NCBI GenBank assembly: GCA_003252455.1
Contig: QKED01000012.1
Coordinates: 1-64,000, forward strand
Direction of reading: 5' to 3'
Origin: Gammaproteobacteria bacterium
GTDB taxonomy: Bacteria > Pseudomonadota > Gammaproteobacteria > Thiohalomonadales > Thiohalomonadaceae
DNA length: 64,000 nt
The position numbers were made by a program, and so were the translations under genes. Under the pieces are notes generated by a model that saw nothing but the letters and a program-made list of their open reading frames with translations, was not told the origin of the DNA and did not search any database. Shown here piece by piece: positions 3,506-49,987 of this stretch (position 1 is the first letter of the stretch; every line of letters starts with the position of its first letter).

Positions 3506-8584
<5,079 letters not shown>

Positions 8585-28600: not shown

Positions 28601-31600
28601 CAACCTCGGCGCTATCACCCTCACCGGCGCCGTGCGCGTGGAGGCCGGTGTGCTCGACCTCGACACCGGGGGGAGCGGGGCGATCCTGGGCAGCGGCTAT
28701 CTCAGTGCCGCCGACATCCGTCTACAGACCCATGCCGGCAGTGGTGCGCTGGGTAGTAGTGCCACCCCCCTGCGCATCACCGGCGCCAGCCAACTGAGCC
28801 TGGGGCAGGGGACGGGGCTGGCCGGGGTCGACCTGCTCGCCAGTGGTGACCTCACCCTCACCAGCCTGCAGTTGACGGCGGATGCCCTGGTCGCGGTGCG
28901 GGCCGGTGGTCAACTCACCCTGCCGGTCGGCGACCTGAGCGCCGCGAGCCTCACCTTCAGCGGCGCTGGTGACCTGAGCAGCGCCGGGGCACTCAGCGCC
29001 AGCGGCGCATTGAGCCTCAAGAGCGGTGCCGCACTCCTGCTCGACCACGACCTCAGTGCGCCCCAGATCACCCTCACCAGCGGCGCCGGTATCACCCAGC
29101 GCGGCGGCGTGCTCAGTGCCACCAGCCTGGCCATCACCGCCGCCGGTGACCTGGCGTTGACCCAGGATAATCACCTCGCCGCGCTCACCCTGCGCAACAA
29201 CCTACTGGCCAGCAACCAGCTGCACAATACCCAAACGCTCAGCCTCGGCAGCGTCACCCTGGCGAGTGGTTCGTCCCTCGACCTGAGCCTGCTCGGCGAC
29301 CTGCAACTGGTAGGTGCCCTCTCACTCGTCGGTGGTACGGCACAGATCGCGGTGAGCGGTGGGGTGACCCAGGGCAGTGCCGGCATCACTGCCCACGGCC
29401 TGACCCTCGCCACTGGCAACGGCGCCACCCTGAGTGGTAGCAACCGCCTCGACCAGGTGGCACTGACCAACCTCGCCGGCACCCTCACCCTGCGTACCCT
29501 CAACGACACCGCCCTGAGCGTGACCGCGCTGAGCCAGAGTGGCGGCGGCAGCGTCACCCTCAACCACGCCGGTGACCTCAATCTGGATGGCGACCTGCTC
29601 GCCAGCGGTGCCGACCTCGCGCTCACCAGTGGTGCTGCCCTGAGTCAGAACAGCGGCACGGTGGTCGCCGAGCGCCTGCTCCTCACCGGCCAGCGTGGCA
29701 TCACCTTGGACAACAGCACGGTCAGTCGCCTCTGGCTGCAGAACAGTGGCTCGGGCGATGTGCGCCTGAGTAATAGCGGCGCGCTGGTGGTAGAGCGTCT
29801 GATCGGCGCCAGTGGCGGCACCCTGCAGCTCGACGTGCTCGGCGACCTGACCCTGGGCGGAACCCTCAGCGCCAAGGGTGGCGCCAGCCTGCTGAGTGCC
29901 AGTGGTCTGCTGCGGCTCGACAGCAACTACGCGGCGGACGCCGGCACCCTGCAGCTGCAGGCCGAACGCCTCGTTGGGACGGGGCGGGTGACGGCCCAGA
30001 CCCTCACCCTCGACAGTGTCGACGGCATCGCCCTGAGTGGTAGCCACAGCATCGCCCGTCTCGCCGTGGGCAATAGTGGCAGTGGCGCGGTGTCGCTCAA
30101 GAGCAGTGCCACCTCGCTGGAGGTGACCCGTCTCGACCAGCTCGGCGGTGACCTGACGCTCAGCCACACGGGCGACCTGCGCTTTAGCGCCCCACTTGAG
30201 GTGGCCGGGGCAGTGACCCTCTCCCTCAGTGGTAGCGCCCAGCTCGACCTGGGTGAGGTGGGACTCAACAGCCACGTGGGCGCCCTGAGCGTCACCGCCC
30301 AAGGGGTGACCCTGCGCGGCGACCTCAGCGCCAGCGCCATCGACCTGAGTCGCGCCGGTGGGGTGACCCTGGTGGGGACGCGCACCCTCAGTGCCGGTAG
30401 TGGCGGTATCGCCCTGCCCGCCAGCCTGGTGCGCAGTGCGCCGGGGGCGACGCTCACCCTCGACGCCAGCGGCGGGGCCATCGCCCTCGGTCGGGTCGGC
30501 GCCGCCGGTGCCGAGCTGGCGGCGCTCACCCTGCGCGGCGCCAGTGCCACCCTGGCGGGAGACATCTACGCCAATGCTCAAGATTTCAGCGCGGTGGGCG
30601 ACCTGACCCTCGCCACCTCCCTTACCCTGGACGCGGATGCGGGCGCTGGCGGTATCTACCTCGCCGGTAGCCGCCTGCACGGTGCCGGCCACGACCTCAC
30701 CCTGCAGCTCGCCAGCGGTGGCAACCTCAGCCCGCTCACCCTGGGTGCGGCGGAGGGGCTCGGGCGGCTCGACATCAACGCCGACGACGGTGTCGACCTG
30801 GGACTGGAGGGGGGGCTGTTGGCGGCGGGGCAGTTGGCGCTGGATGGGCTGCGCGGCGAGTTGCGACTACGCGGCAGCCTGAGTGGCGATGCGGGCATCG
30901 ACCTCACACCCCTCGACCGCGTGGTGTTGAGCGGTAGCGGCGACCAGGTGGCGCTGTTGAGTGCCGGGGGGGCCATCGACCTGAGCGGCACCCCGGTGGT
31001 CGACCCCGGTGGCGACAGCACCCTGCGCATCGACGCCGGTGGCGGGCGTGTCACCCTGGCGGCGGTCGGTGCCAGCGGTGCCGCACTCGATGCCCTGTGG
31101 GTCGACGGTACGGCGGCCAGTGATGGGCTGCTCACCCTCGGCGGCGACCTCTACGCCGATGCCATCGACCTGAGTGGACGCGAGGGGGGGATCCTCATCG
31201 ACGCCAGCCGGACGCTGGTCGCCGACAGCGGGAGCGGTGCCATCGACCTGAGCGGTTCGGCCCTCGTGGCGGGCGCGAGCGGCATGGGGCTCACCCTGCG
31301 CGCGGGTGCCACCGATGCCATCCGCGTCGCCGCCATCGGCAGCGCTGGCGTACCGCTTGCCGCCCTGAGCCTGAGCGGTGGCGCGCTGACGGTGGGCGGC
31401 GACCTGTACGCCGCCGCGCAGCGGTTTCAGGGCTCCGGCAGCCTCACCCTGGTGGGCGATACCCTGTTCGATGCCAGCAGCGGCCCGGGCGACATCGACC
31501 TGAGCGGCCTGACCCTCACCGCCAGCCCCCCCGGTAGTCGACTGAGTCTGGTGGCGCGCAGCGCCGATCGCCTGCTCATCCACCAGCTCGGCAGCAGCGC

Positions 31601-34600
31601 CGAGCCCTTCGCCCAGGTGACCCTGGCGGCGGGTGCGGCGACCCTGGACGGCGACATCTATAGCGCTGGACTCGATGCGCGCGCCCTGGCCCTGCTGACC
31701 CTCGGGGCGGCGGTGACCCTCGACCTCGACAGCGGCGCCGGTAGCCTCGACCTGGCCGCCACGCAGATCGTGGGGGGGGGCCATGACCTCACCCTGCTGG
31801 CCGACGACCCACTGCTCCTCCACACCACCGCGCTGGGGACGATGGTCGGCATCGGCACCCTGACCCTCGCGCTGGACGATGGTCTCAGTCTCGTCGGTGA
31901 TGCCCAGCTACAGCAGCTGGTGAGTAATACCCTCAGCGGCGCGCTGCGTCTCGCCGGTAGCCTGAGTGTGGCCCAGGGTGACCTGGACCTCAGCCAGGCC
32001 AGTGGCATCGAGCTGGTCGGCAGCGGCGACACCCTGCTGCTCAAGAGTAGCCTCGGAGCAGTGCGTCTGGCCGATGTGCATGACGCGGGGGGCGATACCC
32101 GCCTGAGCCTGAGTGCCGCCACTGTGCTCGAACTGGGCCAGGTCGGTGCCGCTGGCGCCGCCCTCGACGCCCTCGACGTGCAGGGCCAGCAGCTAATCCT
32201 CGGCGGCGACCTCTACGCCGACCGTCTCGGCCTCGCCGGGCTGACCCAGGGCCTCACGATCAGCGGCAACCGCCGCCTCGATGCCAGCAGTGGTCGCGGT
32301 GACATCGACCTCCGCGCCACCCCACTGCTGGCCACCAGCGCCAACGCCTCGCTGCAGCTGGTGGCCACCAGCAGCGACACGCTCACCCTGGCGAGTGTGG
32401 GTAGCCTCGGCCTGCCACTCGCCAGCCTCACCCTGAGCGGCGGCACGGCGCACCTCTACGGCGACCTCTATGCCGCCCAGCAGGTCTACAGCGGCCTCGT
32501 GGAGATGGACCTGCACGGCGCCCGCACCCTCGACGCCAGCAGCGGCAGCGGCGACCTGCGCCTTGGCGCCACGCGCCTGCGCGCCGCCGACGAGGATGCC
32601 GCCCTCAGCCTGCGCAATCAGGCGGGGGCCCTCACCACACTCGGCAGTGTCGGCAGCGTGGCCAACCCGCTCAGCGCCTTCGACTTCAGCGGCGGTGCCC
32701 TGCGCCTCGCCGGTGACCTCTACGCCATGCGCCAGGGCTTCAGCGGGAGCAGTGTCACCCTGGAGCGCGACCTGACCCTGGCGGTGGGCGGCGGTGACGG
32801 GGGGCTGGACCTCTCCGGTGCCCCCCTCGTCGGTGCTGGCTACAGCCTGCGCATCGACGCCGCCAGCGGTGCCAACAGCAGTCCGGTGACCCTCGGTGCC
32901 ATCAGTGGGGTGAACCAGCTCGACCTCAACGTCGACGACGCCCTGACCCTGTTCGGTGACCTCGACCTGGTGAGCCTGGCCAGCGATGGGGCCAGTGGCA
33001 CGCTCTCGTTACAGGGCTCTGTGAGCCTCGCCAGTGGCGCGCTGGACCTCAGCACGCTGTCGTCGATCAGCCTCGACGGCCGCGGCGACGCCCTGCGTCT
33101 AGCCACCCAAGGGGGGGCGATCCGCCTGGGCCGTGTGACCCTCGACGACCCCGGTAGCGACACCCGCCTGACGCTGGATGCCGGCAGCGGCACCCTCTAC
33201 GCGCGCGATAGCGCCATCGGCATGGTGGCCGCCATCGGCCAGTTGGGGCTGCGCGCCGCCAACCTACAGCTCGGCGACGTGCACGCCCTGCAACTCGATG
33301 CCATCGATGGCGCCGTGGCCCTCGCCGGTGAGCTGGTGGCCGAGGGTGGCGACCTGATCCTCAACGGCACCCTCACCCTGCAGGGGGCGAGTGCCCTCGC
33401 AAGTGGTGCCGACCTGACCCTCAGCAGCGCTGTCGATGGGGCCTACGCCCTCGACCTGAGCGCCCCCGGGGCGATCCGCGTCACCGCGAGCCTGGGGGCC
33501 ACGCACCCGCTGGCGGGTCTCACCGCCCAGGGCGACAGCCTCAGCCTGACCCAGGTCGATGCCACCGGTGCGGTGCGCCTGAGCGCGGCGGATATCGATA
33601 TCAGTGGTGACCTGGTCACCACCAACCACGCCCCCATCGAGGTGAACGCCGGTCACAGCCTGACCCTGAGCGGCACCCAGGTCAGCGCCGCCGGTGAGCT
33701 GACCCTGCGGGGCGGCGGGACCATCACCAGCGCGGCCGACCTCTCGACCCAGGGCGAGGCGCTGGTGGTCGAGGACACACTGGTCCTCACCGACTCGGTG
33801 CGCATCGACAGCGCCGGTGGGCTGCTCGCCCTCGCCGCCGTCAGCGGCAGCCTCGACGGCACGCCGGAGCAGCTCACCCTGGCGGCCGGTAGTGGCAGCC
33901 TCAGCCTCGGGCCGGTCAGCGGTGCGGCGGGGGCGATCAGTACCCAGGGGCTCACCGACCTCAGCGTGGAGAGCGCCGGGAGTGTGCAACTCGATACCAT
34001 CCGCATCAGTGGCGCGCTGCGCCTCGCCGGTAGCGCCCTGACCCAACTGCAGGGGGCGGTGCAGGCCGGTAGTGCGACCCTGAGCGGTACCGACTACCTG
34101 ATCGGCGCCCCCATGCTCCTCGCCGATACCCTTACCCTGGCCCACAGCGGCACCCTCACCACGCAGACGGGGGCCACACTCAGCGCCGCCAACGGCCTCT
34201 TCGCCACGGGGGCGCTGGTGATCGGTGCCGACCTCGCCAGCGCCGGTGGCGATATCCGTCTGACCCAGGGGCTGCGCCTGGCGGACGGGGCCGTGGTGGG
34301 TCTGAACAGTGCGGGCGGCGCTATCCAGCTCGGCGAATTGCGCGGCACCGCCGGTGGGGCCAGCGAGGCGCTCACCCTGAACGCCGGGACGGGGGACATC
34401 ACCCTGGCGCGGGTCAGTGGTGCCGCCGGGGTGGCCGACAGCAGCGGCCTGACCGACCTCACCTTCACCGCCAGCCACGCCCTGACCCTGAGCGAGGTGG
34501 GCATCACCGGCGCCCTGCGTCAGACCACGGCGGCCACCGGCACCACCACCCTCGGCGGGGTGGTGCACGCGGGCAGTGTGGCCCTGCGCGGGGTCGACCT

Positions 34601-37600
34601 GCTCATTGCCGCCCCGTTGGAGGCGAGCACCACCCTCAGTAGTGACCACTCCGGGCTGCTCACTACCCTCGCCGGGGCGACCCTCAGCGCGGCCACCGGC
34701 ATCACCCTCCAGGGGGATGTGCTGGCGGCCGCCGACCTCTCGACCCAGGGCGGCGACCTGCTGGTGAAGGGTGATTTCACCCTCGCCGAGGGGCGTGCGC
34801 TGCGCCTGGAGAGTAACGGTGGGCGCCTCACCCTCAACGGTGCGGTGGCCGGGAGCAGTGGTGGGGTGGCGGAGCAGCTCACCCTCGATAGCGGCAGCGG
34901 CGCGCTGACCCTCGCCGCGGTGAGCGGCGCGGCGGGTGTGGCCGATAGTCGTGGCTTGAGCAGCCTCACGATCGAGTCGAGTGGCGATGCGCAGCTCGGC
35001 CCGGTGGCACTCAGCGGCGCCCTGACCCAGGGGCAGGGGGGCACCAGCCACTACACCGCCACCCTCGCGGTGGGCAGTCTGGACCTCACCAGCGAGCGCC
35101 TGCTGTTCGACGCCCCGGTGACCATCGGCGCTCAGGGCGTATTGCACGCGACCCAGGTGGAGAGTGCCCTGGGGGCCTCCCTGCAGAGCGGCGGGGCGCT
35201 ACAGATCGTCGCCGATGCCCTGCTCGGTGGTGACCTGCGCGTGACCAGCGGGGCGTTGACCCTGGAGGGGGCGCTGCAACTGCGCGAGGGGGCCGACCTC
35301 AGCCTCACCACCCTGAACGGTGAGATGAACCTGCTCGGCCAGGTGAGTGGCACCGGTGCCGGGGTCGAGGAGCAGTTGACCCTCGACAGCGGCCAGCGTC
35401 GCCTCACCCTCGGTGCACTGGCGGCCACCCCCAGCGGCGCCGTGAGCGGCGGCCTCGGGCGGGTGGAGGTGCGCCAAGCGGGCGAGGTACTCTACGGTGC
35501 CATCGACCTGCTCGGCGACCTGGTGCAGAGCGACAGTGGCACCCTCACCACCCGTTTCACCGAGGGTGTCAGCCTAGGCAGCGCCACGCTCAGTGGTGTG
35601 GCCTTCAGCCTGGAGCAGGCCTTCAGCGCCAGCGGTGCCCTCTCGGTCGACAATCAGGGCACCCTGGTGCAGGCCAGCGCGGCCCCCCTGGCGGCCGCGC
35701 TGGGCATCCAGATCGCCGGTGATGTGCAGTTGGGGGCCGATGTGACCAGCGCCGGGGCGATCCGCATCGGCGGCGAGACGGTCATCGCCGACGGTGCGCA
35801 GGTGCGTATCGACAGCCAGGCCGGGGATGGGGCCATCACGCTGGTCGGTCTGACCCACGGCGTCGACGGCGGGCTCGGTGAGCACCTTACACTGGCCAGC
35901 GGCAGCGGGGCGATCCACCTCGGGCCGCTGCGCTCGTTGGAGAGTGGGGCGGGCAGCAATGGCCTGAGCGACCTGCTGATCGTGTCGAGCGGCGATCTGA
36001 GTTTCGACAGCCTGCTGCTCAGTGGTGGGGTGACCCAGCTGGCCGGGAGTGGCACCACCCACTTCAGCGCCGGGGTCGAGGTGGCCTATCTGGCGCTCAC
36101 TGGGCGTGACTACCTGTTCGACGCCCCACTCCAGGTCTCTGGCCACTTTAGCCTGAGCGACAGCGGCACCAGCGTGCAGGCGGCCGGGGCGAGCATCGAG
36201 GCGCAGAGCCTGCTGCGCGATGGCAGCGGTAGCCTCACCCTCAACGCGGCGCTCTCCACCCTGGGCGGGGCGATGGTGCTCGGCGGTAGCGTGCAGCTCG
36301 GCGCCGATATCACCCTGAGCAGTGCCGGTGGCGACATCACTATCGGTGGTCCGCTGGATGGGGCCCAGCGCCTCACCCTGCTGGCCGACGGCGGTGCCAT
36401 TGTGGCCAGCGCCGGTCTCGGTTCGAGCGTGGCGCTCAGCAGCCTGGAGGCGCAGGGGGCGAGCCTCAGTCTGGCCGGGGTGCGCACCCTGGGCGAACAG
36501 CGCTACAGCGCCGATACCCTCGACTTCACCGGTGGCAGCGCCAGCCTGGTGGGGGGCGGTGAGCTGGTCATCACCCCGCAGAGCGTGGGACGCCGTCTCG
36601 CCCTCGGCTTCGGCAGCGCTCAGGTCGATGCCCTCGACCTGAGCGACACGGACCTCGCGGCCCTCGCCCCCGGATTTTCTCGTATCGTGCTCGGCAGCAG
36701 CGCCAACGCGGGGGCGGTGTTCAGCGACACGGCCCTCTTCGCCGACGACCTGTTGCTCTACGCCAGTGCGCTGACCCTCGGTGGACTCAACGGGGCCGGG
36801 ACGGTGACCCTGGTCGCCGACTCCGTCGTCGCCAGTGGTAGCGGGACGCAGCTCGCCGCCGACCAGTTGAACCTGACCATCAGCGGCGACATGGGGGCGA
36901 ATGACGCGCCACTGCAGATGGCGGTAGGGCGGATCGGGGGTCACCTCGGTGGCTCCCTCTATGGTCTCAACACGGGCGACCTGAGCCTCGTCAGCCAGCT
37001 CGATGTGGCCGGTGACCTGCAGCTCGACGTCGACGGCCTGTTGAGTGTGCCGACCGCACTCAAACTGATGGTGCAGGGGGCGGGCGTGTTGGGCCTAGGC
37101 GACCTCGCCCTGGAGGGGATGCTGCAGGCCGACGCGGGCCTCACCCTCGCCGCCTATGACGGGGCGACCCTGGCACTCGGCACCCAGCTGGGTGCGCTCT
37201 CGATCAGTGAGGCGGAGCTGTTACGCATCGAGACCCCCGACCTCACCCTGGGGGGCGTGACACAGAGTGGTGAGATCCAGCTCGGTGCCAGCGCCTTCGA
37301 CCTGAGCGCGGCCGACTACGACCTGGCCCTGGCCACCTTGGGGGCGGTACGGGTGGTGGGGGGCGAGACCCTGACCCTGCCCAGTGGCCACCGCCTGAGT
37401 GTCAGCGCCGGGCAGGGGGTCGGCCTCGATCACGCGCTGACCCTGGCGGGGGGGCGGGTCCTCCTCGCGGGCGGCAGCGGCGCGGTGAGCCTTGCCTCGC
37501 TCGATACCCTGACCCTGGAGGGGGCCTCCACTACGGCGGCGCTGAGCGTCGTCAGCGGCGCCGACCTGACCCTGACCGGGCTGCTCAGCGGTAGCCAGGT

Positions 37601-38693
37601 GAGCCTGGTGAGCGCCAACCACCTGCGTGGCCAGTCTGGTGCGCAGGTGAGTGCGCAGACGTTGAGCCTCAGCGCTGGCGGCGACATCGGTAGTGCCACC
37701 ACCCCACTGGCCGTGGCCACGGCGAATTTGGACGCGGTGGCGGCACAGGACCTCTATCTCAACAACGCCCCGGCGGCATCCAGCGTGACCCTGACGCGGC
37801 TGCAGAGTGGTGGAGTGCTCGACTATGACCAGCAGTTCGCCGTCGGCTACCCGAGCGGCGCCGTCGGTAGCACCCAGCTCGATGTGTTGAGCAGTGGCGG
37901 TGATGCCCGGCTGCAATTTGCTGCCAGCGACCTCACCCTGGGCACGGTCAGCGCCCAGGGCGATCTGGTCGTCGCCACCACCGGCAGCGGCGACATGACC
38001 CTGAGTGGCGGCATTGTCAGTGGTAACGGCATGGTCGATCTCACGGCCGCCGGGGCCCTGATGCAGCGCTCCGCCCTGCGTACGGCGGGTGCCGCCAACT
38101 TCCTCTTGCGCGCCCAGGGGGGGGCGCTGAGCATGGGCGCCGATGCCCTCACCGGCAGTGTCGGGGGCACCATCGACTACCGCGCCCGTGACCGCCTCAC
38201 GGTCTCGTATATCGATGCGGGGTACGGCGTCAGCGGGGGCGGTAGTGGACAGGTGCTACTCACTAGCCAAACGGAGAATCTCACCAGTTTGATCGCGCTC
38301 ACCCCCAGCGTGCGGGCCAACTCGGTGACCCTGGATGCGGCGCTGAACATCGGTTTGAGCTATATCCAGCCGTTCAACCTACATAGTGATACCCTTGGTG
38401 AGGTGATCCTGCGTTATACTCAGAACGCCTACATCGCCACCTATCCGGTACTCAGTGCCAACGTGCGTGTGGAGGATGCCGGGGGGGGCTACATCAACGT
38501 CTCCGCCAATCGCACCGCCGCCGCGCAGCGCGCCCAGACCCTGGGTCGAGGGGCCATAGGGTATGTCGATGCGGCGCTGTTCAATACCGACTTCTCGCTC
38601 TTCTCCATCGATGGGATCGGCATCAGGATCGCCAGCGATCAACGCCAAGAAGAGGACGAGCGGCCTCGCCTTCCGGCGGAGTTAGTCGAATAG
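25656..38693 (+). CDS. Giant filamentous-haemagglutinin-like exoprotein (TpsA, 4345 residues)
   Basis: Signal peptide about 1-33 (SLHA). The TPS secretion domain (about 34-280) has the diagnostic NPNGILFGASARLDVGGLVA and NRILDANPSTILGSL. The rest is a predicted right-handed beta-helix, rich in Gly, Ala, Ser, Leu and Asp, poor in Lys, with no Cys that I noticed. Three separate tandem repeat families build it: a 320-residue unit (27.4-29.3 kb), a 354-residue composite unit (31.1-33.3 kb) and five roughly 166-170-residue units (33.8-36.3 kb). The last 60 residues (ending RLPAELVE) are different and more charged. No obvious toxin, protease or RGD motif is seen, so a structural adhesin or biofilm filament is more likely than a contact-dependent toxin. 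GGAGAG precedes the ATG. Its downstream neighbour is an FHA-adenylate cyclase starting within 19 bases. Confidence 0.92.
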   Translation: MTQTHPNRPHPLSALLRMLLLTPALGAGSLHAAPEGGTVSGGSGTIEQTGLTTTIVQQSARLAIDWRSFNLANGEHVQFIQPSADAVALNRILDANPSTILGSLSANGRIFLLNPNGILFGASARLDVGGLVAAGMALDGEALADRLRLVGSGLVENRGEIHAGAGGITLLGGEVVNTGQLHSQMGDVTLSGGEQLLLDLAGDQLLLVALDAASVRATNSGQIVAEGGSVRLGGDPMAGAVNNQGLVRASRIEARGGEVYLSGAQLDQGGSLVATSRIDLQGATLQLTGSLLGGAGAVIVAEAQGDLLLQGAELQADGGEVTLLGARVALLDATRVDVSAAQAGGVIRIGGDYQGGELSRADYTLVDSGVRLDASAVAGQGGSIVVWSDVATRFAGHADVSGATGGWVETSSAGVLGFTGSVSLDGTQGADGRLLLDPRDLTITPGAAGSLDGSVELADLWLALAEGGSSESVSLAALEAVSAGTITLQAGRSLTIADLSQGDDGSLDLAAGVNLVLETRNSLSDGSGGIDFDNADNAIRASGGGTLTLRAGSDGAARGDLINIGRLSSDSGDLSLSAADALELAGDLSTSGTLTLSAGGGLEQRAGTLQVGRLDLDVGADATLANANRIGTLAGQVGGALNLRNAADITLDDLSGGGLIELRNQGAIQVAGLTQSSGTLRLDSGGSGAIGGTGQLRAARLELQTLTGTGAVGSSATPLATQAASLAIGRPVGVQGVALLHSGDLTIDTLYLASDAPLDLSVSGNLQLPGQGLDTGSADLTIRAADLTTGGSLISRARITLAASGWLTLDHGLYAGSEIALSGGAGIVQGGGSLSAPSLTLDAGGAVSLKRYNLIDTLSGQVTDGSLELRSNSATLSVGDLQVDQGTLVLNHTGDILLAGRLEARDGVTLGASGAITQSGGGITTSTLALSANQGIDLRLGSQQVASLQATNRTSGDLRIANQGAVTLTSLVGASGSLVELDNLGAITLTGAVRVEAGVLDLDTGGSGAILGSGYLSAADIRLQTHAGSGALGSSATPLRITGASQLSLGQGTGLAGVDLLASGDLTLTSLQLTADALVAVRAGGQLTLPVGDLSAASLTFSGAGDLSSAGALSASGALSLKSGAALLLDHDLSAPQITLTSGAGITQRGGVLSATSLAITAAGDLALTQDNHLAALTLRNNLLASNQLHNTQTLSLGSVTLASGSSLDLSLLGDLQLVGALSLVGGTAQIAVSGGVTQGSAGITAHGLTLATGNGATLSGSNRLDQVALTNLAGTLTLRTLNDTALSVTALSQSGGGSVTLNHAGDLNLDGDLLASGADLALTSGAALSQNSGTVVAERLLLTGQRGITLDNSTVSRLWLQNSGSGDVRLSNSGALVVERLIGASGGTLQLDVLGDLTLGGTLSAKGGASLLSASGLLRLDSNYAADAGTLQLQAERLVGTGRVTAQTLTLDSVDGIALSGSHSIARLAVGNSGSGAVSLKSSATSLEVTRLDQLGGDLTLSHTGDLRFSAPLEVAGAVTLSLSGSAQLDLGEVGLNSHVGALSVTAQGVTLRGDLSASAIDLSRAGGVTLVGTRTLSAGSGGIALPASLVRSAPGATLTLDASGGAIALGRVGAAGAELAALTLRGASATLAGDIYANAQDFSAVGDLTLATSLTLDADAGAGGIYLAGSRLHGAGHDLTLQLASGGNLSPLTLGAAEGLGRLDINADDGVDLGLEGGLLAAGQLALDGLRGELRLRGSLSGDAGIDLTPLDRVVLSGSGDQVALLSAGGAIDLSGTPVVDPGGDSTLRIDAGGGRVTLAAVGASGAALDALWVDGTAASDGLLTLGGDLYADAIDLSGREGGILIDASRTLVADSGSGAIDLSGSALVAGASGMGLTLRAGATDAIRVAAIGSAGVPLAALSLSGGALTVGGDLYAAAQRFQGSGSLTLVGDTLFDASSGPGDIDLSGLTLTASPPGSRLSLVARSADRLLIHQLGSSAEPFAQVTLAAGAATLDGDIYSAGLDARALALLTLGAAVTLDLDSGAGSLDLAATQIVGGGHDLTLLADDPLLLHTTALGTMVGIGTLTLALDDGLSLVGDAQLQQLVSNTLSGALRLAGSLSVAQGDLDLSQASGIELVGSGDTLLLKSSLGAVRLADVHDAGGDTRLSLSAATVLELGQVGAAGAALDALDVQGQQLILGGDLYADRLGLAGLTQGLTISGNRRLDASSGRGDIDLRATPLLATSANASLQLVATSSDTLTLASVGSLGLPLASLTLSGGTAHLYGDLYAAQQVYSGLVEMDLHGARTLDASSGSGDLRLGATRLRAADEDAALSLRNQAGALTTLGSVGSVANPLSAFDFSGGALRLAGDLYAMRQGFSGSSVTLERDLTLAVGGGDGGLDLSGAPLVGAGYSLRIDAASGANSSPVTLGAISGVNQLDLNVDDALTLFGDLDLVSLASDGASGTLSLQGSVSLASGALDLSTLSSISLDGRGDALRLATQGGAIRLGRVTLDDPGSDTRLTLDAGSGTLYARDSAIGMVAAIGQLGLRAANLQLGDVHALQLDAIDGAVALAGELVAEGGDLILNGTLTLQGASALASGADLTLSSAVDGAYALDLSAPGAIRVTASLGATHPLAGLTAQGDSLSLTQVDATGAVRLSAADIDISGDLVTTNHAPIEVNAGHSLTLSGTQVSAAGELTLRGGGTITSAADLSTQGEALVVEDTLVLTDSVRIDSAGGLLALAAVSGSLDGTPEQLTLAAGSGSLSLGPVSGAAGAISTQGLTDLSVESAGSVQLDTIRISGALRLAGSALTQLQGAVQAGSATLSGTDYLIGAPMLLADTLTLAHSGTLTTQTGATLSAANGLFATGALVIGADLASAGGDIRLTQGLRLADGAVVGLNSAGGAIQLGELRGTAGGASEALTLNAGTGDITLARVSGAAGVADSSGLTDLTFTASHALTLSEVGITGALRQTTAATGTTTLGGVVHAGSVALRGVDLLIAAPLEASTTLSSDHSGLLTTLAGATLSAATGITLQGDVLAAADLSTQGGDLLVKGDFTLAEGRALRLESNGGRLTLNGAVAGSSGGVAEQLTLDSGSGALTLAAVSGAAGVADSRGLSSLTIESSGDAQLGPVALSGALTQGQGGTSHYTATLAVGSLDLTSERLLFDAPVTIGAQGVLHATQVESALGASLQSGGALQIVADALLGGDLRVTSGALTLEGALQLREGADLSLTTLNGEMNLLGQVSGTGAGVEEQLTLDSGQRRLTLGALAATPSGAVSGGLGRVEVRQAGEVLYGAIDLLGDLVQSDSGTLTTRFTEGVSLGSATLSGVAFSLEQAFSASGALSVDNQGTLVQASAAPLAAALGIQIAGDVQLGADVTSAGAIRIGGETVIADGAQVRIDSQAGDGAITLVGLTHGVDGGLGEHLTLASGSGAIHLGPLRSLESGAGSNGLSDLLIVSSGDLSFDSLLLSGGVTQLAGSGTTHFSAGVEVAYLALTGRDYLFDAPLQVSGHFSLSDSGTSVQAAGASIEAQSLLRDGSGSLTLNAALSTLGGAMVLGGSVQLGADITLSSAGGDITIGGPLDGAQRLTLLADGGAIVASAGLGSSVALSSLEAQGASLSLAGVRTLGEQRYSADTLDFTGGSASLVGGGELVITPQSVGRRLALGFGSAQVDALDLSDTDLAALAPGFSRIVLGSSANAGAVFSDTALFADDLLLYASALTLGGLNGAGTVTLVADSVVASGSGTQLAADQLNLTISGDMGANDAPLQMAVGRIGGHLGGSLYGLNTGDLSLVSQLDVAGDLQLDVDGLLSVPTALKLMVQGAGVLGLGDLALEGMLQADAGLTLAAYDGATLALGTQLGALSISEAELLRIETPDLTLGGVTQSGEIQLGASAFDLSAADYDLALATLGAVRVVGGETLTLPSGHRLSVSAGQGVGLDHALTLAGGRVLLAGGSGAVSLASLDTLTLEGASTTAALSVVSGADLTLTGLLSGSQVSLVSANHLRGQSGAQVSAQTLSLSAGGDIGSATTPLAVATANLDAVAAQDLYLNNAPAASSVTLTRLQSGGVLDYDQQFAVGYPSGAVGSTQLDVLSSGGDARLQFAASDLTLGTVSAQGDLVVATTGSGDMTLSGGIVSGNGMVDLTAAGALMQRSALRTAGAANFLLRAQGGALSMGADALTGSVGGTIDYRARDRLTVSYIDAGYGVSGGGSGQVLLTSQTENLTSLIALTPSVRANSVTLDAALNIGLSYIQPFNLHSDTLGEVILRYTQNAYIATYPVLSANVRVEDAGGGYINVSANRTAAAQRAQTLGRGAIGYVDAALFNTDFSLFSIDGIGIRIASDQRQEEDERPRLPAELVE
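27420..29340 (+). repeat. Repeat family 1 in the exoprotein: two 960-bp units
   Basis: Marker VGSSATPL/LGSSATPL occurs at 27792 and 28752, exactly 960 bases (320 codons) apart, and the flanking sequence aligns on both sides (for example VALLHSGDLTIDTLYL with VDLLASGDLTLTSLQL). A weaker partial third copy may follow. Unit borders are approximate. Confidence 0.7.
31143..33266 (+). repeat. Repeat family 2 in the exoprotein: two 1062-bp composite units
   Basis: The marker Gly-Asp-Leu/Ile-Tyr recurs at 30558, 31143, 31398, 31650, 32205, 32460 and 32712. Intervals are 585, 255, 252, 555, 255 and 252 bases, so an 85+84+185-residue composite (1062 bases) is present twice in perfect register, preceded by a related 195-residue part unit. 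Confidence 0.75.
33780..36290 (+). repeat. Repeat family 3 in the exoprotein: five ~500-bp units
   Basis: The marker Glu-Gln-Leu-Thr-Leu (or close variant, followed by a Gly-Ser-Gly-like turn) begins at 33867, 34365, 34872, 35370 and 35880, giving unit lengths of 498, 507, 498 and 510 bases. Each unit also carries the conserved phrase VSGAAG..GL(T/S). Unit borders are approximate. Confidence 0.75.
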
Positions 38694-38712: not shown

Positions 38713-39621
38713 ATGACTGAAGAGAATCAATTCGAGTGTGCCGTGATGTTCGCCGATGTCTCCGGTAGCACGCGACTGTATGAACAACTCGGTGACCAAC
38801 GGGCCCAGGAGCTCATCGCCCAGGTGCTCGCGCAGATGGCCAACATCACCTCCCGTTACGGCGGCGTGGTGATCAAGACCATCGGTGACGAGATCATGTG
38901 CCGCTTCAGCAGTGCCGACGGCGCGGTCAAGGCCGCGTGCAATATCCACGAGGTGATGGAGCTGGAGTCGGTCAGTCAGGAGGTGCCGATGAGTGTGCGC
39001 ATCGGCATCCACTATGGCCCGACTATCCTTGAGGAGGGCGATGTGTTCGGCGACGCGGTGAACGTGGCGGCACGTATGGCCGGCTACGCCAAGGCCCGCC
39101 AGACCATCACCACCAGCCAGACCGTGGCGCGTCTCGCCCCCGATCTGGCGGCCATTACCCGTGAGTACGACCGCGCCGAGGTGAAGGGCAAGCAGGAGGC
39201 GATCTCGATCTACGAGGTGCTGTGGGAGCAGGACGACGTGACCCGCATGGTCGGTATCGGCGCCATCGGCGGTACCGAGACCATGGCGCAGATGCTGCGC
39301 ATCAGCCACAGGGACAAGGAGTTCGAACTCAAGCCCAATGGCGGTGGATTTACTATCGGGCGCGGTAGTACCTGCGACCTGATGGTGGATAGCAAGTTGG
39401 CCTCGCGCCAACACGCCAAGGTCGAGTTCCGTCGGGGCAAGGCGGTGCTGATCGACCAGAGTACCAACGGCACCTACGTGCGTCTGGACGATGGCAAGGA
39501 GATCTTCATCCGTCGTGAGGAGTTGCCCATCACCGGCCACGGCACCATCTGCCTGGGCGAGCCGGTCACCAGCGGCAACGAAAACCTGGTCTACTTCTTC
39601 TTCCACAGCGTGCGCGGCTGA
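38713..39621 (+). CDS. Class III adenylate cyclase with C-terminal FHA domain
   Basis: 302 residues. Cyclase domain about 8-175: metal-binding Asp in MFADVSGST and in TIGDEIM, adenine-selecting Lys (IKTIGD) and Asp (VFGDAVN), and the transition-state Asn/Arg in NVAARMAGY, so it should make cAMP rather than cGMP. FHA domain about 205-300: FTIGRGSTCDLMV, SRQHAKVEF and STNGTYV, with the Arg, Ser and Asn used to bind phosphothreonine. I prefer the ATG at 38713 because GGGAG lies just before it; one at 38695, next to the tpsA stop, is also possible. Soluble. Probably co-transcribed with the exoprotein, and the FHA domain may read phosphorylation by the nearby Ser/Thr kinase. Confidence 0.93.
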   Translation: MTEENQFECAVMFADVSGSTRLYEQLGDQRAQELIAQVLAQMANITSRYGGVVIKTIGDEIMCRFSSADGAVKAACNIHEVMELESVSQEVPMSVRIGIHYGPTILEEGDVFGDAVNVAARMAGYAKARQTITTSQTVARLAPDLAAITREYDRAEVKGKQEAISIYEVLWEQDDVTRMVGIGAIGGTETMAQMLRISHRDKEFELKPNGGGFTIGRGSTCDLMVDSKLASRQHAKVEFRRGKAVLIDQSTNGTYVRLDDGKEIFIRREELPITGHGTICLGEPVTSGNENLVYFFFHSVRG

Positions 39622-39735: not shown

Positions 39736-40338
39736 CTACTGATCCAGCGTGCTCTTGAGCCGACGCAGCTCCAGCAGCAGGTCGGTGTTGAGCGCCTGCT
39801 CCTCGCCGGAGAGGTCGCTGAGCGCCTCCAGCTCCTTCATTTTCATGTCGATACGGTCGCGCAGCTTGCGGTATTCGAGCCTGCCGCGCCACTCGACGCG
39901 CTCCTCGGTCCCGGCGGCGCGCCACTGGGCGATGAGGCGGCTGACGTGCTCGACCTCCCAACGGTGGTTGTCGAGCAGGACCCGCACCGAGAGGCCGAGT
40001 GGGGAGATCGCCTTGGGGTTGACCACCGGGGCCGGGGGTTGCACCTCCTGCGTCTCAGGTTGGCGACTGCCGAGCAGCAGCACCGCACCGATGGCGAGGG
40101 CCAGCACCCCACCTGCAGCGCTAAGTAGCAGCGGGCGGTTGGAGCGCGGCGCGAGGGCGTTGGGCAGGTGGTGGCGGCTGCGGTTGGGGTTCATCTCCTC
40201 GGGGGAGATTTCGCCGTTTTGGATCGCCGTCAGCAGCTTGCGACGGGCGTGGCGATACTCGTTCTGCGGCATCTGGTTGTAGGCGGCTTTGAGGGCCAGG
40301 ATGCGCAGGGGAGAGCACTGTTTACAGGTCGCGGACAT
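39736..40338 (-). CDS. Hypothetical single-pass membrane protein downstream of the Ser/Thr kinase
   Basis: 200 residues from MSATCKQC. An N-terminal CxxC (CKQC, residues 5-8) precedes a basic cytoplasmic segment (YRHARRKLLTAIQNGEIS). One membrane helix lies near 83-103 (LLLSAAGGVLALAIGAVLLLG), then a Pro-rich stretch and a helical C-terminal domain (LEYRKLRDRIDMKMKELEALSD). It starts 7 bases after the kinase stop, so it is co-transcribed with kinase and phosphatase and could be an adaptor or substrate. The open frame extends upstream into the kinase gene but in another frame, so the start at 40338 is used. No family recognised. Confidence 0.75.
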   Translation of the reverse strand: MSATCKQCSPLRILALKAAYNQMPQNEYRHARRKLLTAIQNGEISPEEMNPNRSRHHLPNALAPRSNRPLLLSAAGGVLALAIGAVLLLGSRQPETQEVQPPAPVVNPKAISPLGLSVRVLLDNHRWEVEHVSRLIAQWRAAGTEERVEWRGRLEYRKLRDRIDMKMKELEALSDLSGEEQALNTDLLLELRRLKSTLDQ

Positions 40339-40345
40339 AGGTGGT

Positions 40346-43300
40346 TCAGTAGCCCAGGTTGCGGACCACACGCAGGCCGGTGACCGGCTTGCGGCTGTCG
40401 TCATAGTTGATGGACAGGTTGACCGAGCAGCTCGACATGCGGTCGAGATAACTGCCGCCCAGGAGCTTCGGGCTGTTGTCTTGTACGGCCAGTTCGGCGG
40501 CATTCCCGACGTAGTTGACCAGACCCCAACTGTTGGCCTTGCCCGAGGTGACCGGCAGCAGGCTCTGGCCCTTGACCTGCTGGCCACCGATGCGGAAGTT
40601 GCAGTTGTAGTCGCTGTTGCCCTCGTTGCCGCCAGCGCTGGCGGCGTGGCGCCACTCGCGCGGCGTGGGTAGGCGGTAGCGCTGACCACTGCGCTCAGAG
40701 AGCCACTCCACATAGGCCTGGGCCTGCGCCAGGCTGAGACCGGTGGCGGGTAGCTCGTCGCTGCCGGGGGTGTTGCAGCGCTTAGTGTCGGTGCAGTAGA
40801 GGCGGTAGTCCGCGACACTGATCTCATACTTGCCCACGGCGAAGGGGGTGGGGTTGCCGCCGCCAGCGGGGACGACCACCAGGCTCGGGCCACGCTGACG
40901 CTGTGCGCCGACGATGTCGAAGCAGCTGGCGCGGCTCTGGTTGCCATAGCCGGCGAAGCGCTCTTCACACGGTTTGGCCCCAGCTTCGATCTGGCGCTGC
41001 AGGGCGCTCAAGCGTTCGGCCTGGCGCTGATACTCGGGGTTGTCGCGCCACACCTGCTGTGCCTTGACCAGGGCCTGTTCGGCCTGGTCGAAGGTGAAGG
41101 TGGCGAGGGCGCTACGGTAGGCCTGGTAGTGGCGTTGCGCCTCGCCGACGCGCCGCTCCAGGCGCTCGCGCAACTGGGTGGTCTCGCTGTGACGGGGTTC
41201 ATTCGCCAGGGCCAGGTCGAGCTGCTGTTGAGCCGCGCTCAGGCGCCCATCGAGCAGCGCCTCCAGTCCCACCGAGGCGTAGCGTGACGGGGTGGGCAGG
41301 GGCGGCAGGTCGAGCGCGGCGAGGCGCCGACCTTGCGGCAGTACCTCGCGCGCCAGGGTTCGGGCGCGGTGGGCGGCGCGTAGCTCGTTGGAGGCGAGGG
41401 CGAGGATGCGTGCCTCCAGCTGGGAATCGAGGGTGTTGAGCAGCTCGTTGCCATACTCGCCACGCAGCTGCGTGAGGCGTGCCTGGAGTTCGTTGGCGGG
41501 GGTGCCGGCGAGCACCCCGTCGACCATCTGTTGCAGGGCCAGGCGGCGCTGCACCTGTGCCTCCAGGGTGGCGAGTCCCTCGGTCTGTGCGTCGTAGTCA
41601 CGTGCCGCGTTGACCAGCCCCAGGGCGCTCTCGTAGTTGCCGCTGCGGTTGGCCGCCTGGGCCAGGCGCAGGTAGGCCGCGGCGATCGCCTTGGGGGCGG
41701 TGTCGGTGATGAAGGGGTCGTCGGCGGGCAGTTCGTGGCTGAGGGTGGCGAGGGTCTCGCGCGCCTCGCGCAGGGTATTGGCCTGGGTCTGCGCCAGCAG
41801 GGTCTGCTGTAGGCCGAGGATGCGTGCCTGACGCTCCTTCTCGCGCTGCTGTGCCTGATAGGCCTGCTCGGCCAGGTGGACACGCTGCTGTTTGGCGCCG
41901 ATCCCTTCGAGATTGGGCACTAGGCGGAGCTGGCGGTCGAGCAGGCGGCGCGCCTCTAGGAAGCGGTTTTGATTGAGTGCCAGATCGAGCTTCTGCTCCA
42001 GTACGCCGCTCAGCTCGGTCTGGAGTTGGGAGATGGCCGCCTCGCTACCGGCGGCGATAAGGTAGTTGCGGTAGTGGCCGAACAGGGCGTACTCCCACTC
42101 GCGACGGCTGTCGTCCTGGGTGAGCAGTTCGCGGATGGCATCCAGCTCCTCCTGGGCGCTGGCGGCATCGGCGTTCAGTGGGGTGAGTTCGCGCTTACGC
42201 TGTTCACTGAGCAGGGTGAGGCGCCAGTGCAGCAGGGTGCGTACCGGCAGGGCGCCAGCGTGGGTGGCGAGTAGTCGCTCGGCGGGCTCCAGCGCGCCGG
42301 CCTCCACCAGCCGCCCGAGCTCGGCGTCGAAGACATTCGCATAGCGGTTGAATAGGCGATTGGTGAAGGGGCGTGAGAGGTTGAAGGTGGCGAGGCGCTG
42401 CAGGGTCGGGAGCTGGGCGTCGAAGTTGGCCAGTTGTGTACTCTGGTCGAGGCCAGCGAGGCGCATCTCCACCTGCACCAACAATTGGCTGAAGCGCTGG
42501 CTCTCGAGTTCGTCGCGCGAGCTGTCCTGCAGTTCGCGCAGGCGCGGGTCGTCGCCGCTCTGTTCACGGCCGACGTTGATCAGGTTGTCGGCCATCACAT
42601 AGTTGCCTTGGGCGATGGCCTGCTCGGCCTGCTGGGCGTAGGCGATGGTCAGGCGTGGGTCACCCAGCAGTGGGTGTTCGGGGTCGATGCGACGCAGGAT
42701 GTCGAGGACGTCGGTGATGTCGTCCTGCCCCTTGAGCGGGACCAGCAAGCGCGCCTCCAGGGCCTCGTTATAGCGCCGGGTGAGGTCGCTGAGGAGCTGG
42801 TTGCGCCGCTCCTGGAGCCGTTCTCGGGTCTCCTGCAGGCTGGCGGAGTCGGGGAACAGACGCAGGGCGCGGGTCAGGTAGTGTTCGGCCTGCTGGAAGT
42901 CGTAGCGCCCCTGGCCGAAGTCGGTGGCCTCTTCGATGACGCGCTCGTGGGCGCGGATCACCTCTTCACGGTCGCTACTGGTGAGGTAGCGCATGTTCTC
43001 TTCGTTGACCAGGTCGAAGACCCCGAGCAGGCGGTGCAGTTGCGCGCCCTGGGCCTGACGCACCTGTCCGATGAGTTGGGCGAATTCGGCGCCCTGGTAG
43101 TGACCGCGCAGGCTCGGTAGGGCGGCGAGGGCGATGAGCAGGGTGGCCGCCACGCCGGCGCCGGCGTAGAGCCAAGTGCGGTTGGGCTGGGGTGAGATGC
43201 CCTCGATGAACGCCTCGATGGTGGCGGTGCGCTCCTCGCGCACGAAGTGCAGTGCCTGCTGCAAGGTACGCTGCTGGCGGCGGGTGAGGCCGGGGACCGC

Positions 43301-44743
43301 GGCGGGGCGTAGGTGTTGATCGAGTGCCTTGGGGGCGGAGAGTTTGTTGAACGGGTGGCGCCCTGTGAGCAGCTCGTAGCTGACGCAGGCGAGGGCGTAG
43401 ATGTCGTCGCGTGGGTCGGGCTCTTCGCCCTCGAACATCTCTACGGTGGCGTAGGCGGGGGTGAGCGCACCGAGGGTGGAGGGGTCGAAGATGGTCTTCT
43501 CGCCGCTGTTGTCGTCAATCTTGTGCTTGGCGGCGCGGGCGATGCCGAAGTCGAGCACCTTGACCACGCCGCTCTCGGCCTCGTAGAAGGCGTTTCCGGG
43601 CTTGAAGTCGGAGTGCACCAACCCTTTCTGGTGGGCGTAGCTGAGGCCGGAGGCGAGGCCGAGGATGATCTCCAGCGCCTGGGCCACCGGTAGCCCCTGG
43701 CCCTTGAGGCCACGGATGAAGCGGTTGAGCGGCTGCCCCTTGAGCAGCTCCATGGTCATGAAGACGGTGTTGCCGTCGCGGTCGAAGTCGTAGACGGTCG
43801 CGATGTTGGGGTGGGCCAGTCGCTGCGCCTTGCTCGCCTCGCGCTGCAGGGCGATGAAGGAGCCACTCTGGCGTTTGAACGCCTCGGTGAGCACCTTGAT
43901 CGCCACGTAGGGGTTGCGGTCGCGCGCCTCCATCTTGAGCAGGTCGACCGCCTGGTAGACCACGCCCATCCCACCTTCACCGAGGCGGTTCTCCAGCTTG
44001 AAACGCCCCTTGAGGATGGTCCCGGGGCCGAGGCTGGCCTGATCTTTACCTTCGTTGAGTACGCGGAACTGCGGGGTGTCGCGGTTGCGGTTGAGCTCGG
44101 TATCGGTGTGTTCCACCAACACGGTGGAGGTGTTTTCGGTGCGCGAGTGGGTGGGGCTGGTGATCTCGTCGCGATGGCCCAGCTCGGTGGGCGCCTCGTC
44201 ACCGTCGCTGACCCCCATCTGCGTGGGTTCGTCGTCGCGGTGCACCGCGCCCAGTTCGGTGACGTCGGCATCGGTCGACTGGGGGCGGAGCTCGGTGGGC
44301 GCGTCGTCGGCCTCGGCGGTGCCGGAGCGGTAGCCGGGGTGCGTGATCTCCTCGTCCGTCTCCGCGGCGAGCTGGGTGACATCCTCATCGGGCAGCGCCA
44401 GCGGCTCAGGGGGGGAGGCGAGTTGGGTGACGTCGGCGGCGTCGTGCGCGGCGAGTTGCGTCGCATCCTCGTCGCGGTCCGCCTCGGGGGCGAGGTGGGT
44501 GACGTCGTCGTCCAGGGGCTCGTCGGGGAAGAACTGGGTGGCGTCGGGGTCCGGGTGGCGACTGGCGAGACGGGTGGTCTCGGTGGCCCCCTCGACGGCC
44601 CCGAGTTGGGTGGGGTCGTCGGCGTGGTCGATGAGATCGAACTGGTCGATGTGGTACTGCGTCGGCTCGCTGGGATGCCGCGCCCCCTCCTTGTCGGAGG
44701 CGGGGGCGGACCGGTTACCTGTGGGTTTGCGCTTGTCGCTCAT
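40346..44743 (-). CDS. Giant transmembrane Ser/Thr protein kinase with Thr-motif array and C-terminal FGE-sulfatase-like domain
   Basis: 1465 residues. Residues about 25-215 are acidic and carry about thirteen short D/E-x-T-Q/E/H-L-like motifs. Kinase domain about 245-510: Gly loop GEGGMGVVYQA, Lys in YVAIKV, catalytic loop HSDFKPGN (Ser in place of the usual Arg, a non-RD kinase) and VLDFGIARA. A membrane helix follows (about 520-543, WLYAGAGVAATLLIALAAL). A roughly 700-residue helical/coiled-coil region precedes a C-terminal formylglycine-generating-enzyme/C-type-lectin-like domain (about 1255-1465; VGKYEISVADYRLYC, RLPTPREWRHAASAG, LRVVRNLGY) on the outer face. I chose the ATG at 44743; a GTG three codons earlier is possible. 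It lies between PP2C upstream and the small membrane protein downstream. The outer domain probably senses or binds; the kinase target is unknown. Confidence 0.9.
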   Translation of the reverse strand: MSDKRKPTGNRSAPASDKEGARHPSEPTQYHIDQFDLIDHADDPTQLGAVEGATETTRLASRHPDPDATQFFPDEPLDDDVTHLAPEADRDEDATQLAAHDAADVTQLASPPEPLALPDEDVTQLAAETDEEITHPGYRSGTAEADDAPTELRPQSTDADVTELGAVHRDDEPTQMGVSDGDEAPTELGHRDEITSPTHSRTENTSTVLVEHTDTELNRNRDTPQFRVLNEGKDQASLGPGTILKGRFKLENRLGEGGMGVVYQAVDLLKMEARDRNPYVAIKVLTEAFKRQSGSFIALQREASKAQRLAHPNIATVYDFDRDGNTVFMTMELLKGQPLNRFIRGLKGQGLPVAQALEIILGLASGLSYAHQKGLVHSDFKPGNAFYEAESGVVKVLDFGIARAAKHKIDDNSGEKTIFDPSTLGALTPAYATVEMFEGEEPDPRDDIYALACVSYELLTGRHPFNKLSAPKALDQHLRPAAVPGLTRRQQRTLQQALHFVREERTATIEAFIEGISPQPNRTWLYAGAGVAATLLIALAALPSLRGHYQGAEFAQLIGQVRQAQGAQLHRLLGVFDLVNEENMRYLTSSDREEVIRAHERVIEEATDFGQGRYDFQQAEHYLTRALRLFPDSASLQETRERLQERRNQLLSDLTRRYNEALEARLLVPLKGQDDITDVLDILRRIDPEHPLLGDPRLTIAYAQQAEQAIAQGNYVMADNLINVGREQSGDDPRLRELQDSSRDELESQRFSQLLVQVEMRLAGLDQSTQLANFDAQLPTLQRLATFNLSRPFTNRLFNRYANVFDAELGRLVEAGALEPAERLLATHAGALPVRTLLHWRLTLLSEQRKRELTPLNADAASAQEELDAIRELLTQDDSRREWEYALFGHYRNYLIAAGSEAAISQLQTELSGVLEQKLDLALNQNRFLEARRLLDRQLRLVPNLEGIGAKQQRVHLAEQAYQAQQREKERQARILGLQQTLLAQTQANTLREARETLATLSHELPADDPFITDTAPKAIAAAYLRLAQAANRSGNYESALGLVNAARDYDAQTEGLATLEAQVQRRLALQQMVDGVLAGTPANELQARLTQLRGEYGNELLNTLDSQLEARILALASNELRAAHRARTLAREVLPQGRRLAALDLPPLPTPSRYASVGLEALLDGRLSAAQQQLDLALANEPRHSETTQLRERLERRVGEAQRHYQAYRSALATFTFDQAEQALVKAQQVWRDNPEYQRQAERLSALQRQIEAGAKPCEERFAGYGNQSRASCFDIVGAQRQRGPSLVVVPAGGGNPTPFAVGKYEISVADYRLYCTDTKRCNTPGSDELPATGLSLAQAQAYVEWLSERSGQRYRLPTPREWRHAASAGGNEGNSDYNCNFRIGGQQVKGQSLLPVTSGKANSWGLVNYVGNAAELAVQDNSPKLLGGSYLDRMSSCSVNLSINYDDSRKPVTGLRVVRNLGY
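44090..44672 (-). repeat. Array of Thr-Gln/Glu-Leu-like motifs in the kinase N-terminus
   Basis: About thirteen degenerate copies spaced 8-20 residues apart: EPTQY, DPTQL, ETTRL, DATQF, DVTHL, DATQL, DVTQL (twice), EITHP, APTEL (twice), DVTEL, EPTQM. Each has an acidic or small residue before Thr and mostly Leu/Phe/Met two after it, in an acidic disordered context. Confidence 0.85.
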
Positions 44744-44784
44744 CTCATCCACTACCCGCCACAGGCCCCCGGCGGGGCGCCGGA

Positions 44785-45513
44785 TCAGGCCGTGATGTCG
44801 ATCAATATACTCGTGATGTTATCACGTCCTCCGGCGGAGAGCGCGCGCTCGATCAGGGTGTCGCCGGCCCGCTCCAGCTCGGTGCCGCGGATGATCGCGG
44901 CGATGGCACGCTCGTCCAGCTCTTTGTAGAGGCCGTCGCTGCAGAGCAGAAGGCGATCGCCGGGGAGCAGGTGCAGATACTCCATGTCGAGGGAGAGCTC
45001 ATCGGTGACGCCCACGGCGCGGGAGATGACGTTGGCCGAAGGGTGGTTTTCCGCCTCGGACTCTTTGAGCTTGCCCATGTTGACCATCTCCTGCACCAGG
45101 CTGTGGTCTTCGGTCACCTGGCGCAGCTCGCCGTCACGCAGTAGGTAGACGCGGCTGTCGCCGGCCCAGATCACCAGGGCGTGCTCACCCTGGGCCATGA
45201 GCATGGCCACGGTGCTGCCGATGGGGGAGCGGTCATCGCGTGCATTGCCTTGGCCGACTAGGTACTCGTTGACCTCGATGATGCGCTTTTCGAGGTACTC
45301 GGCGCTGTCGGCCAGACTATCGAGGTTGCGGTAGTGGCGCAGGGCGTTGATCACGGCCTGACTGGCGACATCGCCCGCCTGATAGCCACCCATACCATCG
45401 GCCACGCACCACAGCCCCTCGCTGGGTTGATCCAGGTAGGAGTCCTCGTTGAGGTTGCGACGGCGTCCGGTATCCGTGCGCGCGGTGGATTTCCAGTGGA
45501 CCTGGTTGACCAT
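44785..45513 (-). CDS. PP2C-family Ser/Thr protein phosphatase
   Basis: 242 residues from MVNQVHWKS, the normal size for bacterial Stp-type phosphatases. Metal-binding and catalytic motifs are all present: RRRNLNEDSY, ADGMGGYQAGDVAS, WAGDSRVYLLRDG, LLLCSDGLY and GGRDNITSILI. It dephosphorylates Ser/Thr residues, most likely those written by the kinase encoded 41 bases downstream. The frame is open further upstream with other ATGs (for example 45555), none with a clearly better ribosome site, so the start is uncertain. It is first in the phosphatase-kinase-membrane protein operon and divergent from pabB. Confidence 0.92.
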   Translation of the reverse strand: MVNQVHWKSTARTDTGRRRNLNEDSYLDQPSEGLWCVADGMGGYQAGDVASQAVINALRHYRNLDSLADSAEYLEKRIIEVNEYLVGQGNARDDRSPIGSTVAMLMAQGEHALVIWAGDSRVYLLRDGELRQVTEDHSLVQEMVNMGKLKESEAENHPSANVISRAVGVTDELSLDMEYLHLLPGDRLLLCSDGLYKELDERAIAAIIRGTELERAGDTLIERALSAGGRDNITSILIDITA

Positions 45514-49963: not shown

Positions 49964-49987
49964 GGACCTCGTGGGTATCTTGCGGTT

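Follow-up and report, generated by a model that had tools for sequence, protein, structure and literature searches.

The window analysed here, a 64,000-nucleotide stretch of contig QKED01000012.1 from a gammaproteobacterium of the family Thiohalomonadaceae, contains the genes for a membrane-bound Ser/Thr kinase, a PP2C phosphatase, a small SHOCT-like membrane protein and an adenylate cyclase that carries an FHA domain, with a TpsB-TpsA pair that qualifies as a two-partner secretion system directly preceding the cyclase gene (Table 1). The domains named in the original prediction for this DNA (Pkinase and FGE-sulfatase in the kinase, Guanylate_cyc and FHA in the cyclase, and PP2C in the phosphatase) were all recovered with Pfam, with the FGE-sulfatase domain spanning kinase residues 1302-1421 at a score above the cut-off. 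The kinase comprises 1468 amino acids when read from a GTG start codon, while position 44743 would be the start if an ATG were used. In the AlphaFold model, its periplasmic part forms a helical, TPR-like solenoid of about 700 residues and, at the C-terminus, an FGE-like fold; in a fold search, the solenoid retrieved only other TPR-like solenoids, at very low TM-scores, and the FGE-like portion matched PvdO. All scores of the kinase against NCBIfam kinase equivalogs were below the respective cut-offs, and its matches in PADLOC were set aside as generic hits to the kinase domain.

Table 1. Features of the kinase-cyclase locus and its secretion neighbours (positions in the window).
Feature	Position	Strand	Details
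TpsB-type outer-membrane transporter	23736..25616	+	POTRA_2 and ShlB, above Pfam cut-offs
Giant TpsA-type exoprotein	25656..38693	+	4345 aa; TPS secretion domain above Pfam cut-off; 19 bp separate its end from the FHA-cyclase start
Class III adenylate cyclase with C-terminal FHA domain	38713..39621	+	Pfam Guanylate_cyc and FHA above cut-off
Linker motif DDVTRMV (Thr177) of the cyclase	39232..39252	+	Between cyclase and FHA domains, in a disordered segment; 78 of 96 orthologues match the strict motif
Small SHOCT-like membrane protein	39736..40338	-	Follows the kinase gene downstream, as in most related kinase loci
PpkA-like membrane Ser/Thr kinase	40346..44752	-	Array, kinase domain, TM segment (527-545), periplasmic TPR-like helical solenoid, C-terminal FGE-like domain
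Activation-loop Thr420 (GEKTIFDP) of the kinase	43481..43504	-	[DE]xTx[hydrophobic] motif as in the array
Array of 14 acidic-x-Thr-x-hydrophobic-like motifs	44150..44671	-	Covers residues 28-201 of the kinase N-terminus; motif threonines from 31 to 198
PP2C phosphatase (Stp1-like)	44785..45513	-	32 bp upstream of kinase, same strand

The catalytic domain of the cyclase scores 74 bits against PF00211. In an alignment of its orthologues, D15 and D59 are invariant, and K55, D110 and R121 are kept in at least 90% of the sequences. With these positions, the metal, adenine and transition-state residues of such cyclases, the protein has the residue set of a class III enzyme and is predicted to synthesize cAMP. 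The phosphothreonine-binding set of the FHA domain, originally described as intact, is indeed invariant at all seven pocket positions (G216, R217, S231, R232, H234, N252 and G253) in 67 sequences, making the domain, by its GR, SRxH and NG residues, a candidate phosphothreonine reader. In sequence and fold, the catalytic domain resembles those of the class III cyclases CyaB, Ma1120, CyaC and OaPAC, which differ from it in that they lack the combination seen here of an FHA regulatory domain and a conserved linker threonine. This threonine lies in a stretch following the conserved Trp171, where 95 of the 96 orthologues have a Thr residue. Even in 16 orthologues at 34-48% identity, it is preceded by acidic residues and followed by M, I, L or V at position +2, and the cyclases that adjoin the kinase studied here almost always show the sequence [DE]D[VA]T[RQ][MFI]. 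In the AlphaFold model, both domains mostly reach pLDDT values above 90, and residues 175-187 alone fall below 50. The linker site is thus a short, conserved motif within a disordered linker.

The acidic N-terminal region of the kinase, for which about thirteen motifs had originally been claimed, contains 14 motif-like threonines (residues 31, 48, 60, 72, 85, 98, 109, 126, 137, 153, 165, 177, 189 and 198). Ten sites conform to the strict pattern [DE]xTx[LIVMFY], far above the mean of 1.09 and the maximum of 6 obtained in 5000 composition shuffles. Each of the 14 threonines is preceded by an acidic residue at -3, -2 or -1 and followed by Q, E, H, R or S at +1, and 12 of them have L, F, Y or M at +2. 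Their spacing is even (12.8 ± 2.3 residues; p=5e-5 against random placement). No tandem DNA repeat was called across the array region, and its direct repeats are weak (27-40 nt), so the DNA sequences of the copies have drifted apart. Among 1372 open reading frames from the window and the other loci covered, the window kinase has the densest array. Of these frames, 12 encode four or more motifs per 200 residues, and ten of them are kinases of the same PpkA-like family.

At the level of sequence, one motif, with an acidic residue at -2, a threonine and a hydrophobic residue at +2, recurs in the kinase array, in the activation loop of the kinase, where it is kept in about 32 of 41 relatives, and in the cyclase linker; the latter two occurrences were absent from the original prediction. 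The best array sites of the window (EDVTQLA, DDVTHLA, EDATQLA and ADVTQLA) closely resemble the linker motif. A profile trained on the cyclase linkers of other genomes and then scored on the window matched six of the 28 threonines in the kinase N-terminus, none of the 58 in the remainder of the kinase and two of the 1087 in the other open reading frames. Within genomes, the letters of array and linker do not co-vary (p=0.23). We infer that the motif may serve both as the phosphorylation consensus of the kinase and as a ligand of the FHA domain. The sequence RDNITSILI in the phosphatase was considered as a further docking site and rejected, as it reads as what is presumably the usual Asp-Asn motif of PP2C enzymes.

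The kinase, the phosphatase and the FHA-cyclase form a conserved gene set, as expected from the original proposal that they act as a unit. In a sample of 369 genomes of the class, 23 encode a close orthologue of the kinase (at least 430 bits), and 22 of these also have an FHA-cyclase, compared with 5.0 expected (p=4e-15), although these counts are not all independent because a few genomes are near-duplicates (e.g. L039 and L141). The 80 named loci are the best matches to the query and hence a biased sample. In the one exception, G059, the kinase and the phosphatase are present and no FHA-cyclase match was found. The kinase gene is located less than 5 kb from a cyclase gene for 19 of 27 close kinases, as opposed to one of 54 lower-scoring ones, and the usual gene order is cyclase, PP2C, kinase and small SHOCT-like membrane protein. 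The latter follows the kinase in the window (39736-40338) and in L035, L038, L084, L164 and others; a few copies carry a [DE]xTx[hydrophobic] site themselves (RDRTEMR in L164 and RDRTQIT in L096). An open reading frame of 24,301 residues that starts with an FHA-cyclase (L162, G136:C20) was discarded because it is an artefact caused by an extended stretch of masked N.

Within this gene set, the three motif-bearing regions are not equally conserved. The number of strict array copies among the operon kinases ranges from 0 to 10, with the window kinase at the upper end, followed by L084 with nine, partly tandem copies, the kinases of L132, L104, L087, L098 and L168 with four to six, and those of L083, L127, L166, L039, L089, L094, L164 and L037 with none to two. 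Given this variation, the array represents an elaboration rather than a conserved core. Arrays are also found in kinases of type VI secretion system (T6SS) loci that have no adjoining cyclase (five motifs in L038, four to five in L041 and seven in L177) and are therefore a trait of the PpkA family that is not specific to cyclase recruitment, the role originally proposed for the array. Judged by motif conservation, the core consists of the linker site of the cyclase and the activation-loop threonine of the kinase. These findings bear on the idea, central to the original prediction, that the array is a docking platform for the cyclase. Its basis is strengthened by the identity of the array motif with the conserved motif of the cyclase, but an essential role sits poorly with its variable copy number. 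A reading in which the phosphorylated array is indispensable for bringing the FHA-cyclase to the membrane and the linker threonine is incidental would account for an array that is dense, evenly spaced and matched to the FHA-cyclase family's own motif. We nevertheless regard it as unlikely, because operon kinases with none to two motifs still keep the cyclase together with its linker motif, T6SS kinases have arrays without an adjoining cyclase, and conservation is much stronger for the linker threonine than for the array.

The closest relatives of this kinase point to a known pathway. Kinases of the same family are encoded in the T6SS operons of L038, L041 and L177, together with TssK, TssL/DotU, TssM, TagF and PP2C, and in a phylogenetic tree, the cyclase-adjacent kinases cluster beside them in one clade, whose deep forks are weakly resolved. 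The TssL proteins of these loci carry DKTVF, DRTVI or DRTIL sequences (DRTVIRP-type) at their N-termini. The PpkA kinase of A. tumefaciens phosphorylates its substrate TssL at DLPpTVVEI, a site that is then bound by Fha with a Kd of 0.5-1.6 mM (PMC3953482). In A. citrulli, PpkA phosphorylates Fha, whose phosphorylation at T640 is required for T6SS function, and both proteins form condensates (PMC12607579). Given such a weak single-site affinity, a multivalent array could be useful. The PpkA-PppA-Fha pathway of T6SS thus provides a close mechanistic precedent, contrary to the earlier claim that no system with this layout has been described. Like the locus in the window, it comprises a kinase of related sequence that sits in the membrane and extends into the periplasm, a PP2C phosphatase from the same operon and an FHA reader (Fha/TagH), and the acidic-x-Thr-hydrophobic motif recurs in TssL and in the N-termini of the T6SS-locus kinases. 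In contrast, the FHA domain here shares a polypeptide with an adenylate cyclase, the locus is associated with two-partner secretion, and TssK (PF05936), the T6SS component searched for, is absent from the genome, which is 99.7% complete. Moreover, the FHA domain of the cyclase scores 31.5 bits against the TagH model TIGR03354, below its cut-off of 120.25. With no T6SS marker found and no TagH, the locus falls outside the definition of the T6SS pathway, but it probably works in a similar way, with cAMP as the output. Among open-licence papers in PubMed Central, we found no description of an FHA-cyclase, of an operon combining kinase, PP2C and FHA-cyclase or of a link of such genes to two-partner secretion.

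Together, the shared motif and the co-travelling genes suggest an undescribed kinase-to-cAMP switch related to the T6SS control pathway. We consider it reasonably likely that the locus encodes a threonine phosphorylation pathway of the PpkA-PppA-Fha kind that is uncoupled from T6SS and whose FHA protein is an adenylate cyclase, with the linker as the switch and the array as a source of avidity. A periplasmic cue would act on the TPR/FGE-like region of the kinase, which would then autophosphorylate its activation loop and its array. The phosphorylated array could gather FHA-cyclases and thereby raise their concentration at the membrane, where the kinase would phosphorylate Thr177 in their linkers. 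The phosphorylated linker might then enter an FHA pocket either in trans, locking the dimer that class III cyclases require, or in cis, and thus alter cAMP output, until the PP2C phosphatase resets the pathway. The proposed division of labour between a core switch in the linker and a device for avidity or clustering, tuned by copy number, in the array follows from the persistence of the linker motif while array copies vary. Furthermore, because linker and activation loop share the motif, direct phosphorylation of the cyclase is at least as likely as array docking.

It is also conceivable, though again improbable in our view, that the array sites are autophosphorylated to compete with the activation loop and with substrates, to buffer PP2C or to cluster the kinase, and that the FHA-cyclase is not involved. 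Such a decoy or timer would fit with the motif in the activation loop, the condensates formed by A. citrulli PpkA (PMC12607579) and the arrays of T6SS kinases, but it leaves both the likeness of the cyclase linker motif and the gene linkage unexplained. Still more doubtful is the notion that linker and array bind a partner other than a kinase or FHA domain, for instance as a structural element capping the cyclase C-terminus, and are similar by convergence on an acidic-Thr-hydrophobic pattern: the motif is short and comes after Trp171, where the cyclase domain ends, but residues 175-187 are disordered in the model, the linker profile is highly specific in the window, and the locus encodes both a kinase and an FHA domain.

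The phospho-switch proposed here, with its linker and its array, has parallels elsewhere. In eukaryotic checkpoint proteins, SQ/TQ cluster domains and TQxF arrays are read by FHA domains. The kinase array resembles them as a multi-site phosphothreonine cluster with predicted FHA readers, but kinase and consensus are unrelated, and here a bacterial membrane kinase bears its own cluster. The actinobacterial proteins OdhI and GarA combine an FHA domain and a kinase-targeted threonine in one small protein, making a phospho-switch possible. The FHA-cyclase shares this combination, whereas its conserved threonine is located in a linker, its effector part is a nucleotide cyclase, and its phosphorylation and cis binding are hypothetical. 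For OdhI, phosphorylation has been described at Thr14 (PMC2784874).

The cue or the output of the pathway may concern the neighbouring exoprotein. Of the 23 loci that contain both cyclase and kinase, 14 have TpsB or TpsA genes, compared with one of the 80 loci that contain a cyclase but not the kinase (p=1.6e-10), a comparison that is approximate because locus lengths differ and several of the negative loci end at a contig edge near the cyclase. Genes for TpsB or giant TpsA proteins lie by the cyclase-PP2C-kinase genes in the window and in L037, L084, L087, L096, L097, L098, L104, L164, L165, L166, L168, L170 and L171; in L035, they are found beside a kinase locus without the cyclase. This genetic link suggests that the kinase cue or the cAMP output has to do with the giant exoprotein. 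More tentatively, a dedicated kinase-to-cAMP relay might sense or control its two-partner secretion, such that the TPR/FGE-like domain would let the PpkA-like kinase monitor the periplasm, and the kinase would assemble a phospho-platform of many sites and switch the FHA-cyclase via its conserved linker phosphothreonine, with the relatives of the cyclase, found in about a fifth of the sampled genomes of the class (full-length matches in 80 of 369), providing a general phospho-gated source of cAMP driven by several types of kinases.

If correct, this scheme would join Ser/Thr phosphorylation and cAMP signalling through a single conserved residue, Thr177, give the T6SS control pathway a relative with a different output and assign a function to a widespread, uncharacterised family of FHA-cyclases. 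It would also yield a first candidate regulator of giant two-partner-secreted proteins and a bacterial example of a multivalent phosphothreonine array recognised by an enzyme with an FHA domain.

Many FHA-cyclases that carry the linker motif occur without this kinase and are flanked by other Ser/Thr kinases or by none, so that other kinases may be the usual partners of the cyclase. In L068 and L072, the FHA-cyclase adjoins a different Ser/Thr kinase (about 790-800 residues) as well as PilT/PilU-like genes, which hints that the cyclase may have a second kinase partner and be connected with type IV pili. In L114, L115, L151, L152 and L161, it lies next to a different, non-PpkA-like Ser/Thr kinase of about 785-890 residues, and in L077 and L078, it is adjoined by cyclic-nucleotide-binding or Crp-like regulators, consistent with a cAMP output. 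Elsewhere in the window, a 21-nt tandem repeat is present in 5.3 copies at positions 6461-6571, and positions 49598-51367 contain HesB/IscA-like and cobyrinate a,c-diamide synthase-like genes whose order, by reading only, recalls that of dsrR-dsrN in sulfur oxidisers.
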